Assembly: GCA_934525595.1 (NCBI GenBank)
Contig: CAKSZJ010000014.1
Span: forward strand, 24,563-88,562
From: an uncultured Chiayiivirga sp.
GTDB taxonomy: Bacteria; Pseudomonadota; Gammaproteobacteria; Xanthomonadales; Xanthomonadaceae
Direction of reading: 5' to 3'
Length of the DNA: 64,000 bases
In this document: piece after piece, positions 5,886 to 56,025 of the stretch
Position numbering within the stretch: the stretch's first letter is position 1
Layout of the letters: each line of letters starts with the position of its first letter
Program-made: the position numbers and the translations under genes
Notes under the pieces: generated by a model
The model's input: only the letters and a program-made list of their open reading frames with translations
Database searches by the model: none
What the model was told of the DNA's origin: nothing

Positions 5886-6851
5886 ATGACACTGACCCAG
5901 CTTCGTTATCTCGTCGCCATTGCCGACGCGGGCCTGAACATCACCCAGGCCGCCGAACGCGTGCATGCGACCCAGCCGGGCCTGTCCAAGCAGCTCAAGC
6001 AGCTGGAGGAGGAGCTGGGCTTCCAGCTCTTCCTGCGCCGCGGCCGCAGCCTGGATTCGATCACCGCCCCCGGCGTGGAAGTGATCGCGCGCGCGCGCAA
6101 GGTGTTGCTGGAAGCCGGCAACATCCGCGCCCTGGCGGCCAACCTGCGCGGCGAGATCCAGGGCGAGCTGGCGATCGGCACCACCCACACCCAGGCGCGC
6201 TACGTGCTGCCGCCGGCAATCGGTCCGCTGCGCGGGCACTTCCCGGAGGTGAGCATCCACATCGTCCCGACCGGCGAAGGCGAGGCGCTGGCGGAGCTGG
6301 GCCGTGGCGCCGACCTGGCCCTGGTCAGCAGCTCGGGCGTGCCGCCGGCCGGCGGCATCGCGGTGCCGCTGTATTCCTGGCGGCGCGTGGTGATGGTGCC
6401 GCGCGGCCACGCGCTGGCGAACCTCGGCCGTGCGCCCACGCTGGAGGCGCTGGCGCGCGAACCGATCGTCAGCTACGAGTCCTCGCTCAAGCCCGAGTCC
6501 TCGCTGCGCGTGGCCTTCGCCCGCGCCGGGCTGGAGCCGCGCATCGCCTTCACCGCGCGCGACGCCGACCTGATCAAGACCTACGTGCGCGCCGGCCTTG
6601 GCATCGGCGTGCTGGCGGAAATGGCGGTCTCGCCCCGCGACGATCCGGACCTGGTGACGCTCCCGGCCAACGACCCTTTCTCCGAGTGCATGGCCTGGGG
6701 CGTGCTGCCGCGCGAGCGGGTTCCGCGCAACTACACGCTCAAGCTGCTCACCCTGCTCGCACCGCAACTGGACGAGCGCGACCTGCGGCGCGCGCTGCAG
6801 GGCACCTTCGACGGCCAGTGGCCGACGCCACCGGCGTGGTCGAAGCGCTGA
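5886..6851 (+). CDS. cysB: CysB-type LysR transcriptional regulator of sulfur assimilation
   Basis: LysR family, 321 aa. The N-terminal winged HTH (about residues 1-60) contains MTLTQLRYLVAIADAGLNIT, and the helix AERVHATQPGLSKQLK is characteristic of CysB/Cbl. The effector domain has GTTHTQARYVLPPAI, where the conserved Thr residues bind sulfate or the inducer O-/N-acetylserine, and the C-terminal domain is intact. CysB activates sulfate uptake and cysteine biosynthesis genes. It is divergent from cysK, a logical target, with 188 bases between the two starts. CysB rather than Cbl is inferred from motif quality and the cysK neighbour. Confidence 0.93.
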   Translation: MTLTQLRYLVAIADAGLNITQAAERVHATQPGLSKQLKQLEEELGFQLFLRRGRSLDSITAPGVEVIARARKVLLEAGNIRALAANLRGEIQGELAIGTTHTQARYVLPPAIGPLRGHFPEVSIHIVPTGEGEALAELGRGADLALVSSSGVPPAGGIAVPLYSWRRVVMVPRGHALANLGRAPTLEALAREPIVSYESSLKPESSLRVAFARAGLEPRIAFTARDADLIKTYVRAGLGIGVLAEMAVSPRDDPDLVTLPANDPFSECMAWGVLPRERVPRNYTLKLLTLLAPQLDERDLRRALQGTFDGQWPTPPAWSKR

Positions 6852-51115: not shown

Positions 51116-51274
51116 GCGCAGGGTCTCCCAAAGCCAAGGTCCGCAGCATAGCGATGCGGCATCGCGCCCGCCTGCGCGGCGGCCGCGTCGCGGTACGCGG
51201 ATCCGGGCCACCGGTCTTGCGCACGACGCGGCCGGGTGTATCGCGCCGGCGGGATCCGCAACATGGGGCTGCAG

Positions 51275-51300
51275 AATGATTCGATGATTGATGTATCATT
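51275..51300 (+). promoter_or_regulatory. Likely ArsR operator
   Basis: AATGAT (51275-51280) and ATCATT (51295-51300) form an inverted repeat, with a second ATGAT (51284-51288) pairing with ATCAT (51295-51299). It ends five bases before the arsR ATG in an AT-rich patch, the usual place for an ArsR/SmtB operator. It would repress the whole four-gene operon. Confidence 0.6.
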
Positions 51301-51305
51301 GAACA

Positions 51306-51638
51306 ATGAACGAAGCCGACGCCGTTTCCGCCCTGAGCGCCCTGGCCCATGCCCAGCGGCTGCGCGTGTTCCGCACCCTGGTCGTGGCCGGCCCGGAAGG
51401 GCTCATCCCCAGCGCGCTGTCCGACCGGCTCGACGTGGCCCGCAACACCTTGTCTTTCCACCTCAAGGGGCTGGCCCACGCCGGTCTGGTCACGATCGAA
51501 CCGCAGGGCCGCAACCTGATCTACCGCGCGAACTTCGCGCAGATGAACACGCTGCTCGGCTACCTGACCGAGCATTGTTGCCAGGGCGGCACCTGCGAAG
51601 CCAACGACACCCTTGCACCGGCCTGTGCGTGCCCATGA
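51306..51638 (+). CDS. arsR: ArsR/SmtB-family arsenic-responsive repressor
   Basis: 110 aa winged HTH: LAHAQRLRVFRTLVVAG, recognition region VARNTLSFHLKGLAHAGLV. Metal site: there is no CVC in the recognition-helix region (as in E. coli ArsR); instead Cys91, Cys92 and Cys97 in HCCQGGTCE lie at the C-terminus, like the site of Acidithiobacillus ferrooxidans ArsR, with two extra cysteines (PACACP). As(III) binding should release it from the operator. Its stop overlaps the acr3 start (ATGA). Confidence 0.92.
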   Translation: MNEADAVSALSALAHAQRLRVFRTLVVAGPEGLIPSALSDRLDVARNTLSFHLKGLAHAGLVTIEPQGRNLIYRANFAQMNTLLGYLTEHCCQGGTCEANDTLAPACACP

Positions 51639-52726
51639 GCGTCGCCTCCGAACCCGTCACTCGCACCTCTTCGGCTTCCGCCATGAGCGTGTTCGAGCGT
51701 TATCTGACCGCGTGGGTGCTGCTTTGCATCGTCGCCGGCATCGCGCTGGGCCATTTCGCACCGGGCGTGTTCCAGGCCATCGGCCGCATGCAGGTCGCGC
51801 AGGTCAACCTGCCGGTGGGCCTGCTGATCTGGGTCATGGTGATCCCGATGCTGCTCAAGGTGGATTTCGGCGCGCTCGGCCAGGTGCGCCGGCACTGGCG
51901 CGGCATGAGCGTCACGCTGTTCGTCAACTGGGCGGTCAAGCCATTCTCGATGGCGCTGCTGGCGTGGCTCTTCGTTCGCCAGGTCTTCGCCCAGTGGCTG
52001 CCCGCCGAACAGCTCGACGGCTATGTGGCCGGCCTGATCCTGCTGGCTGCCGCACCCTGCACCGCGATGGTGTTCGTCTGGAGCCGGCTGACCGACGGCG
52101 ATCCCATGTTCACCCTGTCGCAGGTGGCGTTGAACGACACGATCATGGTATTTGCGTTTGCGCCCATCGTCGGGCTGCTGCTGGGCCTGTCGGCGATCAC
52201 GGTGCCGTGGGACACCCTGCTGCTTTCGGTCGTGCTCTACATCGTCATTCCGGTCATTCTCGCGCAGGTGTGGCGCCGCGCCCTGCTGCGGCAAGGCCAG
52301 GCCGCGCTCGATGCCACGCTGGCACGCCTCGGTCCGCTCTCCATCGCGGCACTGCTGCTGACGCTCGTGCTGCTGTTTGCTTTCCAGGGCGAGGCGATCA
52401 TGCGCCAGCCGCTGGTGATCGCCCTGCTGGCGGTGCCGATCCTGATCCAGGTGCTCTTCACCTCGAGCCTGGCCTACTGGCTCAATCGCAAGGTCGGCGA
52501 AAAGCACGGCATCGCCGGCCCTTCGGCCCTGATCGGTGCCAGCAACTTCTTCGAACTGGCCGTGGCCGCGGCCATCAGCCTGTTCGGCCTCCAGTCCAGC
52601 GCGGCGCTGGCCACCGTGGTCGGCGTGCTGATCGAAGTGCCGGTGATGCTGCTGGTCGTGCGCGTGGTCAACCGCTCGCGCGACTGGTACGAGCGCCCGG
52701 CCCGCGACGCAGTGAGCCGTGCATGA
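51635..52726 (+). CDS. acr3: Arsenite efflux permease ACR3
   Basis: 363 aa, ten hydrophobic helices. APCTAMVFVWSRLTDGDP contains the essential conserved Cys and IGASNFFELAVA the conserved Glu of ACR3; SLFGLQSSAALATVVGVLIE follows. Exports arsenite using the proton-motive force. Start 51635 (an in-frame extension upstream belongs to the arsR region). Overlaps arsR and the ATP-grasp gene by ATGA on both sides. Confidence 0.95.
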   Translation: MSVASEPVTRTSSASAMSVFERYLTAWVLLCIVAGIALGHFAPGVFQAIGRMQVAQVNLPVGLLIWVMVIPMLLKVDFGALGQVRRHWRGMSVTLFVNWAVKPFSMALLAWLFVRQVFAQWLPAEQLDGYVAGLILLAAAPCTAMVFVWSRLTDGDPMFTLSQVALNDTIMVFAFAPIVGLLLGLSAITVPWDTLLLSVVLYIVIPVILAQVWRRALLRQGQAALDATLARLGPLSIAALLLTLVLLFAFQGEAIMRQPLVIALLAVPILIQVLFTSSLAYWLNRKVGEKHGIAGPSALIGASNFFELAVAAAISLFGLQSSAALATVVGVLIEVPVMLLVVRVVNRSRDWYERPARDAVSRA

Positions 52727-54006
52727 GCCTCGCCGAGCAGCTCAATCTCTCGTGCGCGTGCAGCACGCTCGATGCGCAGCGACTGTGGCAGGACCTGCCC
52801 GCATCGTTGGCCCGGAGCCATCCGCACCTGTTCTCGGAAACGACGGTATTCATCGACACGCCGACCTGCGATGCCATCACCCGCGCCGTGGCCGCGCTCG
52901 AACGCGCAACTCGCCTTCCGGCATGGCAACAGGCGGTGGCCGAACGCACGCACGGCGTGCTGCCACCCGATTTCGGACCGTCGGGCGCGTTCATGGGGTA
53001 TGACTTCCACCTGCGCGCCGACGGCCCGCGCCTGATCGAGATCAACACCAACGCGGGGGGCGCGCTGCTCAATGCCGCCTTGGCCCGGGCGCAGCATTCG
53101 TGCTGCGCGGCGATGGACGCACCGCTGGGCCAGGCCGATCTGGCGCACGGCTTCATCGAGATGTTCCGTACCGAGTGGCAGTCACAGCGCGGCGATCAAC
53201 CGTGGCGCACGGCGGCGGTGGTCGATGATGATCCGGCGCACCAGTATCTGGCCGCCGAATTCGATCTGGCCCGATCCCTGTTCGAGCGGCACGGCATCCG
53301 CACCGTCGTGGCCGATCCACGCGAGCTGCAATGGCGCGACGGCGCGCTGTGGCACCCGTCGCTGGCGTCGAACCAGCCGATCGACCTGGTCTACAACCGC
53401 CTCACCGATTTCGACCTGTCGGAGCCGCGGCACGAGGCGCTGCGCCGCGCCTATCTGGCCGGCGCGGTGGTGCTGACGCCGCATCCCCGCGCCCATGCGA
53501 TGCAGGCCGACAAGCGCAACCTGATCTGGCTTGGCGATGACGAACAGCTGGCCCGCTGGGACGTGGAGGCCGCTGATCGTGAGGTACTGCGCCGCGCGGT
53601 GCCGAGTACCCGGGCCGTATCGGCCGAGACTGCCGATACCCTCTGGCGCGAACGCAGCCAGTGGTTCTTCAAGCCCATCACCGGCCATGGGAGCCGGGCC
53701 GCCTACCGCGGCGACAAGCTGACCCGACGAACCTGGGAGCACATCACTGCCGGCGGATTCGTGGCCCAGTCGCTGGTGCCGCCGAGTGAGCGCACGGTCG
53801 CGGTCGATGGCGTGCCGACCCGGCTCAAGGTCGACCTGCGGGCCTATGCCTACCGCGGACGCGTGCTGCTGCTGGCAGCGCGCACCTACGCCGGCCAGAC
53901 CACCAACATGCGCACGCCCGGCGGCGGATTCGCACCCGTGCTGGTCCTGCCGGTCAACCACACCGCAGGAACGAACGACATCTCCTTCCATGCGGGCCTT
54001 GCATGA
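52723..54006 (+). CDS. ATP-grasp-like protein of unknown function in the arsenic operon
   Basis: 427 aa. I do not recognise a named family. Features resembling ATP-grasp enzymes: PRLIEINTNAGGALLN (103-118), WFFKPITGHGSRAAYRGDK (314-332, nucleotide-binding Lys and Gly loop), QSLVPPSE (349-356), LKVDLRAYAYRGRV (368-381) and a metal-site-like TTNMRTPGGGFAPV (393-406). Possible As ligands include Cys11-x-Cys13 and Cys127-Cys128. ATGA overlaps with acr3 before and arsC::arsN2 after it argue strongly for a role in the same pathway. A ligase that makes a thiol peptide or conjugates an arsenical is a hypothesis. N-terminal start is fixed by the overlap. Confidence 0.72.
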   Translation: MSLAEQLNLSCACSTLDAQRLWQDLPASLARSHPHLFSETTVFIDTPTCDAITRAVAALERATRLPAWQQAVAERTHGVLPPDFGPSGAFMGYDFHLRADGPRLIEINTNAGGALLNAALARAQHSCCAAMDAPLGQADLAHGFIEMFRTEWQSQRGDQPWRTAAVVDDDPAHQYLAAEFDLARSLFERHGIRTVVADPRELQWRDGALWHPSLASNQPIDLVYNRLTDFDLSEPRHEALRRAYLAGAVVLTPHPRAHAMQADKRNLIWLGDDEQLARWDVEAADREVLRRAVPSTRAVSAETADTLWRERSQWFFKPITGHGSRAAYRGDKLTRRTWEHITAGGFVAQSLVPPSERTVAVDGVPTRLKVDLRAYAYRGRVLLLAARTYAGQTTNMRTPGGGFAPVLVLPVNHTAGTNDISFHAGLA

Positions 54007-54830
54007 GCGACATCTCGATCTTCCACAATCCCGCTTGCGGCACCTCACGCAACGTACTGGCGGCGATCCGCGCCAGCGGCAGCGAGCCGCGGATCATCGA
54101 GTACCTCGAGCATCCGCCCGGGCGCGAATCCCTGAAGGCGCTCATCGCGCGCATGGGCATGACGGTGCGCGACGTGTTGCGCATCAAGGGCACGCCGTAC
54201 GCGGAGCTGGGGCTGGACGCCGCGCATTGGAGCGATGACGAGCTCATCGACCAGATGCTGGCGCATCCGATCCTCATCAATCGCCCCATCGTGGCGTCGC
54301 CCCTGGGCGTTTGCCTGTGCCGCCCGTCGGACCGGGTGATCGAACTGCTGCCGCCGCCAACGCGCGATATGCACAAGGAAGACGGTACGCCATGGCTGGT
54401 GGACGCGCCCGTCGCAGGGGACGATGCCGACCTCATCGAAGCGCTGCAAAACGCAGGTTTGCCCACGGACGATCTGTCGGAGACAGCGGGCCGCTTTTTC
54501 GCCTATGCCACGCTGGGCGGAGAGCATGTGGGCTATGGCGGCTTCGAACGTACGGGCACGGCGGTGCTGGTGCGCTCGCTGCTGGTTCGACCGAGCGCGC
54601 GCCATCGGGGCGTCGGCGGCGGCATGCTGGCGCTGCTGCTGCGTCGCGCCTTCGATGATGGCGGCCGCGAGGCCTGGGCGCTGACCACGACCGCCGTGTC
54701 GTTCTTCGAGCGATCCGGCTTCAAGCCCACGTCGCGCGCTGCCGCACCGGCCGCCATCCTTGCCACGCGGCAAGCCGCGCGCCTGTGCCCGGCAAGCGCG
54801 GTCCTGCTGACGCGCTCGATTCGACCCTAG
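54003..54830 (+). CDS. arsC: Arsenate reductase ArsC fused to an ArsN2-type acetyltransferase domain
   Basis: 275 aa fusion. Residues 1-135 are a glutaredoxin-coupled ArsC: Cys12 in HNPACGTSRN, Arg in LRIKGTPY, INRPIVASPLG and LCRPSDRV with the conserved arginines. Residues 140-275 are a GNAT domain of the ArsN2 group: VRSLLVRPSARHRGVGGG (acetyl-CoA loop), LTTTAVSFFERSGF and a C-terminal APAAILATRQAARLCPASA diagnostic for ArsN2. Arsenate would be reduced to arsenite for export by ACR3; the target of the acetyltransferase is not known. Coupled to the ATP-grasp gene by ATGA. Confidence 0.9.
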   Translation: MSDISIFHNPACGTSRNVLAAIRASGSEPRIIEYLEHPPGRESLKALIARMGMTVRDVLRIKGTPYAELGLDAAHWSDDELIDQMLAHPILINRPIVASPLGVCLCRPSDRVIELLPPPTRDMHKEDGTPWLVDAPVAGDDADLIEALQNAGLPTDDLSETAGRFFAYATLGGEHVGYGGFERTGTAVLVRSLLVRPSARHRGVGGGMLALLLRRAFDDGGREAWALTTTAVSFFERSGFKPTSRAAAPAAILATRQAARLCPASAVLLTRSIRP

Positions 54831-54995
54831 GCATCGGGCGAGCCAGCCGCCGTCCACCTGTCACGCATTCCGGGACGGATCGCGCGCCCGGGTCCGCGGA
54901 CGCTGTGCCGGCGTGCTGCCGGCGGAACCGTGCAAACGCAGGACGATGCCGGCGCGCGCGCCGCACACAAGCCTCTATGCTATGCACCGCCCACC

Positions 54996-55082
54996 GCCCG
55001 GGTGGCGAAACCGGTAGACGCAAGGGACTTAAAATCCCTCGGCCGCAAGGCCATGCGGGTTCGACCCCCGCCCCGGGCACCA
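54996..55082 (+). tRNA. tRNA-Leu (anticodon TAA), CCA encoded
   Basis: 87 nt class II tRNA. Acceptor GCCCGGG (54996-55002) pairs with CCCGGGC (55072-55078), discriminator A, CCA at 55080-55082. The anticodon stem AGGGA / TCCCT encloses the loop CTTAAAA with TAA at 55030-55032. A long variable arm and the T-loop GGTTCGACCCC are present. TATGCT at 54976-54981 may be the -10 box. Confidence 0.98.
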
Positions 55083-55113
55083 CCGTCCCGTTGCGCCCAT
55101 CTCCGGAGCCACC

Positions 55114-56025
55114 TTGATCTCGTCCCTGCGCATCGCCTTCGCCGCCACGCTGGTCGGTCTCAACACCCTGATCCACGCACTGCCGCTGCTGGGGCTGGCG
55201 GTGGTGAAGCTCGCGCTGCCGGTGGCGCGCTGGCGCGACGCGATCTCGAACCTGCTCACGCGCATCGCCGAGTCGTGGATCGGGGTGAACAGCGCGGCCA
55301 TCCTCGCCTTCACGCCGACGCGGATCGTGCTGATCGGGGAGTTCGCGCCCGATCCGCGCGGGCGCTACCTGGTGCTGTGCAACCACCGCAGCTGGTGCGA
55401 CATCCCGATGCTGCAGGCCGCGTTCAACCGGCGGATTCCGCTGCTGCGGTTTTTTCTCAAGCAGGAGCTGATCTGGGTGCCGGTGCTGGGGCTGGCGTGG
55501 TGGGCGCTGGATTTTCCCTTCATGCGCCGGCACTCGCGCGCCAAGCTGCAGCGCGATCCGGGCCTGCGCGGCAAGGACATGGAAGCCACGCGGCGCGCCT
55601 GCGCGAAGTTCGCGGCGCGCCCGGTCTCGATCATGAACTTCGCGGAAGGCACGCGGTTCACCGCGGCCAAGCACGCCTCGCGCGCATCGCCCTATCGTCA
55701 CTTGCTGCGGCCCCGCGCCGGCGGCACGGGCGCGGTGCTGGACGCCATGGCCGGCCATCTGGATGCCGTGCTCGACGTGACCCTGATCTACCTTGATCCG
55801 GAGCCCTCGCTGGCCGCGCTGCTGGCTGGACGCCTGCGCCGGGTCGAGGTGCACGTACGCGAGCGGCCGGTGCCCGAGGAACTGGCGCAGGGCGGCGACT
55901 ACGAGAGCGACGCGAGCTATCGCATTGCCTGCCAGCGCTGGCTCAACGCGCTGTGGGTGGAGAAGGACGCGCTGATCGGCGCGCGGCTCCAGGCCGCGCA
56001 GGAAGACGCTACGGACGCGGCGTAG
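55114..56025 (+). CDS. 1-acyl-sn-glycerol-3-phosphate acyltransferase family protein
   Basis: 303 aa PlsC-domain protein of the larger YihG type. One N-terminal hydrophobic segment (about 8-35), then the catalytic VLCNHRSWCDIP (H(X)4D), FFLKQELIWVPVLG, MNFAEGTRFT and the third block RPRAGGTGAVLDAM. TTG at 55114 is taken as start because GGAG lies seven bases before it and no ATG fits. It follows the tRNA gene by 31 bases. Substrate specificity unknown. Confidence 0.85.
   Translation: MISSLRIAFAATLVGLNTLIHALPLLGLAVVKLALPVARWRDAISNLLTRIAESWIGVNSAAILAFTPTRIVLIGEFAPDPRGRYLVLCNHRSWCDIPMLQAAFNRRIPLLRFFLKQELIWVPVLGLAWWALDFPFMRRHSRAKLQRDPGLRGKDMEATRRACAKFAARPVSIMNFAEGTRFTAAKHASRASPYRHLLRPRAGGTGAVLDAMAGHLDAVLDVTLIYLDPEPSLAALLAGRLRRVEVHVRERPVPEELAQGGDYESDASYRIACQRWLNALWVEKDALIGARLQAAQEDATDAA

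Follow-up and report, generated by a model that had tools for sequence, protein, structure and literature searches.

What is a gene with the look of a ligase, and with no named family, doing inside an arsenic resistance operon? The question is raised by a 64,000-nucleotide (nt) stretch of contig CAKSZJ010000014.1 from an uncultured Chiayiivirga sp. (the window, by which we mean the whole stretch), where arsR, acr3, a gene for a 427-amino-acid (aa) protein and an arsC::arsN2 fusion form a four-gene operon on the + strand in which neighbours overlap by ATGA (Table 1). We propose, with a probability of about 0.5, that the 427-aa protein is an amide ligase driven by ATP whose gene has repeatedly been drawn into operons for soft-metal(loid) resistance; we infer that the enzyme makes or modifies a small thiol or peptide and that a cysteine metal site tunes it or uses the metal. 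Operons for arsenic, copper and mercury resistance are usually described as a regulator, a pump and a reductase. If all three carry the same ligase family, they would share an overlooked layer of small-molecule synthesis, and the gene may be a so far unstudied aid to bacteria in their defence against metals that bind thiols.

The gene is real and is part of its operon. The initial annotation had joined the four genes by three successive ATGA overlaps and concluded that the 427-aa protein is expressed together with the resistance machinery, and open reading frame coordinates and sequence agree on the overlaps, which lie at 51635, 52723 and 54003. The order of these contiguous genes is kept in the closest genome record, a Lysobacteraceae metagenome-assembled genome contig (L001; 95.6% nt identity over 8 kb), and in a second locus, L002, at 75% aa identity. 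Between the window and L001 the gene carries 10 synonymous and 5 non-synonymous differences, and the resulting ratio of non-synonymous to synonymous rates (pN/pS 0.18) indicates that it evolves under constraint.

Structure prediction places the protein confidently in the circularly permuted ATP-grasp superfamily, the fold class of eukaryotic glutathione synthetase and of bacterial GspS and YgiC, with the E-x-N motif ahead of the putative ATP-binding lysine. Members of this superfamily use ATP to phosphorylate a carboxylate, and the phosphate is then displaced by an amine. Sequence searches of the Protein Data Bank (PDB) with the single protein or a family profile returned no relevant match, and the fold was therefore placed by structure comparison alone. 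The ATP-grasp call of the initial annotation, built on motifs that are present in the protein, agrees with this predicted fold, and its suggestion of ligase chemistry is supported at class level by the GspS-type fold and the conserved ligase core.

Comparison with E. coli Gss/GspS locates that core. For the Gss residues we take the roles to be magnesium binding (D318, E330, N332), catalysis (R316) and glutathione binding (Ser335, Ser337). In an ungapped motif comparison the magnesium ligands equal D94, E106 and N108 of the window protein, whereas R316, an arginine in YgiC too, corresponds to G92, and the two serines correspond to A111 and G113; all rows of a 49-row family alignment have G92, A111 and G113. 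The ligase core is therefore retained and the features that define GspS are gone. A profile comparison with YgiC alone paired the E-x-N motifs, at a score too weak for assigning membership, and PF03738 matched neither the window protein (E <= 1) nor any of the 49 members (E <= 0.1), nor was it found in any of three carrier genomes tested. We consider it unlikely that the protein is a YgiC-type peptide or protein ligase, adding an amine to a peptide carboxylate and so modifying a ribosomal peptide or protein in metal handling.

The best sequence-plus-structure matches of the protein are true glutathione synthetases, which raises the alternative of an extra, metal-inducible glutathione synthetase (gamma-Glu-Cys + Gly) that would raise the glutathione pool for ArsC. 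The ArsC of this operon is of the glutaredoxin type, and glutathione is established as a ligand of arsenic, copper and mercury. Against this, an ordinary gshB (TIGR01380) is already present in 3/3 carrier genomes tested, so that a plain glutathione-synthesis role would be redundant; the serine pair and the catalytic arginine are replaced as described above; and the Pfam domains of the eukaryotic-type enzyme (PF03917/PF03199) were detected neither in the window protein nor in the 49 family members. We regard this alternative as improbable.

The family is large, with at least 8000 homologous clusters, and its genomic settings extend well beyond arsenic. Neighbourhoods were read at 80 loci from genome contigs (the best 80 of 185, and therefore biased to near relatives), in six annotated regions out of 32 plasmid matches, and in two genome samples, one of 398 genomes of the phylum (L120-L153) and one of 399 genomes of one order (L154-L213). 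The phylum sample supplied 16 loci of 15 genomes (L120-L135; G001 left out) and 18 loci of the more distant group II described below, from 129 matching genomes; the order sample supplied 60 of its 68 matches, six more being already among the loci and two, L216 and the fragment L217, standing outside the main counts. Metal markers were tblastn matches to reference proteins (E <= 1e-10) within 8.7 kb of the gene. Over 180 loci, which hold some duplicates (e.g. L081/L196, L043/L120), arsenic markers occur at 24 (3 also with copper), copper or heavy-metal P-type ATPase markers at 63, mercury markers at 3 and none at 94, overlaps being counted in both; some of the P-type ATPase matches may be Cd/Zn/Pb pumps, and markers can be missed on short contigs. 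Setting L126 to copper by hand, where a Pfam CopD gene lies beside the ATP-grasp gene, gives 64 copper-type loci and 93 without a marker.

With arsenic markers at 24 of 180 loci, homologues lie mostly away from arsenic genes, and the arsenic-specific family envisaged in the initial annotation does not hold; we dropped the idea of an arsenic-only family once copper and mercury loci appeared. What the same survey supports is a wider association: the commonest non-arsenic context is copper resistance, and the family therefore looks tied to thiophilic metals.

Within ars operons the gene takes several positions. Writing X for the ATP-grasp gene, we found arsR-X-arsC-acr3 (L004-L006, L012), arsR-arsC-X-acr3 (L027), arsR-arsC-acr3-X (L207, and L163 with two arsC genes) and arsR-acr3-X (L210, L001, L002), the gaps measuring roughly -19 to +94 nt (starts approximated from BLAST). 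On a tree of 143 non-redundant rows the arsenic label needs 15 changes, at least 11 of them forced by supported branches, with the caution that short-contig labels may be incomplete; the gene has therefore entered or left ars settings many times. At L194 its overlap with a gene for a heavy-metal P-type ATPase is 4 nt. Psychrobacter and Moraxella copies stand downstream of tat genes and a gene for a copper-type ATPase, many of the copies in Marinobacter are found in cop islands, and the copper-type islands repeatedly contain ICMT-family and TatABC genes. On the mercury plasmid pMR68 (L086), merT, a merP-like gene, merF, merA, an alkylmercury lyase gene and a CoaC-like flavoprotein gene precede it.

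This breadth bears on a further alternative, in which the protein would work with the ArsN2 acetyltransferase to conjugate arsenicals specifically, an organoarsenical amino acid being one conceivable substrate. The two are co-encoded in the window, L001 and L002, and another branch of the superfamily tends to be present in genomes with ArsS, the arsenosugar enzyme. Since arsN2 is found at only 2 of the 80 genome-contig loci, and the family is also present, mostly with the cysteine quartet described below, at copper and mercury loci that have no ars markers, we hold such a role to be very improbable.

One feature that goes with metal context is a cysteine quartet, C11-x-C13 and C127-C128, which the initial annotation had picked out as a possible arsenite site. 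In the 49-row alignment C127 and C128 never vary, and conservation is at least 90% at C11 and C13. The four occur as a set: all are present in 124 of 181 homologues, and the 127 non-redundant rows, left after removing five incomplete ones (L016, L172, L172b, L134, L191) and those >88% identical to an earlier row, divide into 93 with four, 4 with three and 30 with at most two. Presence of the quartet changes about seven times on the tree, and the catalytic residues are kept in nearly all rows with or without it.

Counting rows with at least three of the four cysteines as quartet-positive, 21 of 39 such rows in the two genome samples have arsenic, copper or mercury markers nearby, against 1 of 30 without the quartet (Fisher p 4e-6, kinship ignored), and over all non-redundant rows the figures are 60/97 and 1/30. 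Quartet-bearing copies are thus enriched near these resistance genes over relatives from the same samples. The link persists in the two samples when all four cysteines are required (19/36 vs 3/33, p 1e-4), when no rows are dropped (22/43 vs 2/33) and when L126 is not set by hand (20/39, p 1e-5), as well as in the order sample with four cysteines required (14/28 vs 4/32); none of the 18 group-II loci is near such a marker. The quartet-less L213 has an ArsC-like match within 8.7 kb. The simplest reading is that the quartet is a soft-metal site kept where metal handling matters; it may alternatively be a structural zinc site.

Such a zinc site is part of the view that the gene is a passenger, a mobile housekeeping-type ligase travelling in metal-resistance islands. 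Copies beside phospholipase D, F-type ATP synthase or phosphoketolase genes, and the 94 of 180 loci without a marker, would fit that view. It accounts less well for a gene that is contiguous with ars operons, in some overlapping its neighbours, in several gene orders and reached repeatedly on the tree, or for the link between quartet and context, with same-sample relatives lacking the quartet so rarely in metal settings; we judge it quite unlikely.

Several observations weigh against a metal-linked thiol or peptide ligase. In the two samples, 18 of 39 quartet-bearing copies have no arsenic, copper or mercury marker nearby. The three-cysteine rule was chosen after the four-cysteine count, and the link is weaker, yet present, with four. 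The quartet-less L216 has an ArsC-like match about 8 kb away, which would make 2/31, and a tree-aware paired test had 3 usable pairs and was not significant. No constant partner gene for a thiol pathway was found across contexts. To these we add two points already met: the glutathione-binding serines of Gss have no counterpart at A111 and G113, and the carrier genomes tested have their own gshB.

If the protein is nonetheless such a ligase, as we propose, it would couple a small carboxylate, probably a thiol compound or peptide, with an amino acid or an amine. Thiol affinity is common to As(III), Cu(I) and Hg(II), and a thiol compound or cysteine-containing peptide would therefore be favoured as substrate or product. 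The product could buffer these metals or present them to the efflux and reduction machinery, while a soft metal bound by C11, C13, C127 and C128 might switch activity or be held there as a metal-thiolate substrate. In the window, ArsR would induce the ligase together with Acr3 and ArsC::ArsN2, and the GNAT domain ArsN2 could N-acetylate the same product.

Neighbouring genes suggest that further tailoring differs between islands. In pMR68 the CoaC-like flavoprotein gene (6242-6778; 132.6 bits with NCBIfam coaBC, short of the cut-off) separates the mer genes from the ATP-grasp gene, which it adjoins; an HFCD/CoaC-like gene lies about 4.2 kb away in L067, and none was found at the other loci surveyed alongside these two. 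Asparagine-synthase-type or class II amidotransferase genes adjoin the ATP-grasp gene in L085 (8624-10456), L199 (9267-11048) and L204 (9302-10222). A bolder and doubtful extension, which we put forward tentatively, is that the family consists of metal-gated ligases making a so far undescribed low-molecular-weight thiol or peptide, which in Proteobacteria would be a common cytosolic carrier of As(III), Cu(I) and Hg(II). Metal would be sensed by the Cys-x-Cys/Cys-Cys quartet, which would switch synthesis on, with one copy per island under the local metal-specific repressor; on this reading, the pairing on the mercury plasmid hints that a C-terminal cysteine of the product could be decarboxylated to an aminothiol.

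Among the genes around the ligase, Acr3 (380 bits vs 282.8), the ArsC domain (122 vs 106 bits) and the ArsN2 domain (134 vs 125 bits) all score above their curated NCBIfam cut-offs, and ArsR clearly passes Pfam HTH_20 and narrowly misses the NCBIfam ArsR subfamily (53.8 vs 55).

Table 1. Features of the operon and of the ATP-grasp protein, in window positions
Feature	Position	Strand	Remarks
Candidate ArsR operator	51280-51303	.	TTCGATGATTGATGTATCATTGAA; imperfect 12+12 palindrome, 9/12 half-site matches; ends 2 bases before arsR
arsR	51306-51638	+	110 aa; C-terminal Cys triad C91 C92 C97, plus C107, C109
acr3	51635-52726	+	arsenite efflux permease, 363 aa; TIGR00832
Unnamed, predicted circularly permuted ATP-grasp ligase (glutathione-synthetase/GspS fold)	52723-54006	+	427 aa
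Codons of C11-x-C13	52753-52761	+	first half of family cysteine quartet
Codons of E106-I-N108-T-N110	53038-53052	+	putative Mg-binding E-x-N motif, ahead of ATP-binding Lys (permuted order)
Codons of C127-C128	53101-53106	+	second half of cysteine quartet
Codon of K317 in KPITGHGS	53671-53673	+	putative ATP-binding lysine; invariant in 49 rows
Codons of D371-L-R373	53833-53841	+	invariant D-x-R
arsC::arsN2 fusion	54003-54830	+	glutaredoxin-type arsenate reductase + GNAT acetyltransferase, 275 aa; TIGR00014, NF040501

The palindrome before arsR is likely a shared ArsR operator, judging from related loci: TTCAA...TTGAA palindromes lie shortly 5' of arsR in 6 of 7 relatives tested besides L001 (L004, L006, L009, L010, L012, L014), and L002 has none shortly before its arsR. 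GC-rich chance palindromes reached the same score as the candidate, in a search without a shuffle control. A scan of 51150-55150 gave no promoter-like site and two terminator-like sites, the first within acr3 at 51955 on the strand of the operon and the second on the opposite strand, a total at chance level (1.3 expected). Directly downstream of the operon is a tRNA-Leu (TAA) at 54996-55082, a possible integration site.

The more distant group-II relatives, about 29-40% identical, lack the quartet. In the 398-genome sample ArsS, the arsenosugar radical SAM enzyme, is found in 95 of the 113 genomes with a group-II gene, compared with 21 of the remaining 285, a lineage-confounded association, and ArsS did not adjoin the group-II gene in seven genomes checked. 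Downstream of that gene is a TIGR04282-cluster gene in all seven loci L147-L153 and a TIGR04283-cluster gene in L147-L149 and L151-L153 (one representative scanned for each); NCBI names both arsenosugar biosynthesis glycosyltransferases. In group IIa (L136-L146) a gene for a PstS-like phosphate-binding protein is nearby in 10 of 11 loci, a Rad50-like ATPase gene at 9 and an MFS gene at 8.

Searches of open-licence PMC full text for ATP-grasp proteins (including circularly permuted ones) with arsenic or copper resistance, for glutathione synthetase in an ars operon and for glutathionylspermidine with arsenic gave nothing recognisable as this family. In the passages concerned, the ATP-grasp of PMC7826186 is a MysC-like protein, the mentions in PMC6016940 and PMC10354927 are bare annotation entries, and PMC10092412 lists Nitratiruptor NIS_RS04835, an unspecified 'ATP-grasp domain-containing protein', as up-regulated by Cd and Cu. 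ArsN2 is treated in part of PMC9144182, and the relevant part of PMC6465285 places arsN2 nearer N-acetylglutamate synthases and assigns it no function there.

How, then, does the protein stand to known systems? With eukaryotic-type glutathione synthetase (yeast 1m0w, human 2hgs, plant 5oes/3kal) it has the circularly permuted ATP-grasp fold in common over nearly its full length, but identity in the structural alignments is only 11-16%. The initial annotation knew of no named arsenic-pathway family with this pattern, and profile searches left an ATP-grasp link without a family name: CP_ATPgrasp_2 (PF14403) is the only Pfam family to match the window protein, weakly (18.1 bits, cut-off 32), and is matched by 15 of the 49 members at E <= 0.1, and no NCBIfam 20 model matches the 427-aa protein. 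To our knowledge, the named ars families, among them arsR, acr3, arsC, arsN2, arsH, arsJ and arsM, include no ATP-grasp ligase. The gene shares operons or neighbourhoods with arsR, acr3, arsC, arsN2 and arsH, and its product is best described as belonging to an unnamed new proteobacterial family of a known ligase kind, one that is absent from the searched libraries and is linked to soft-metal(loid) resistance.

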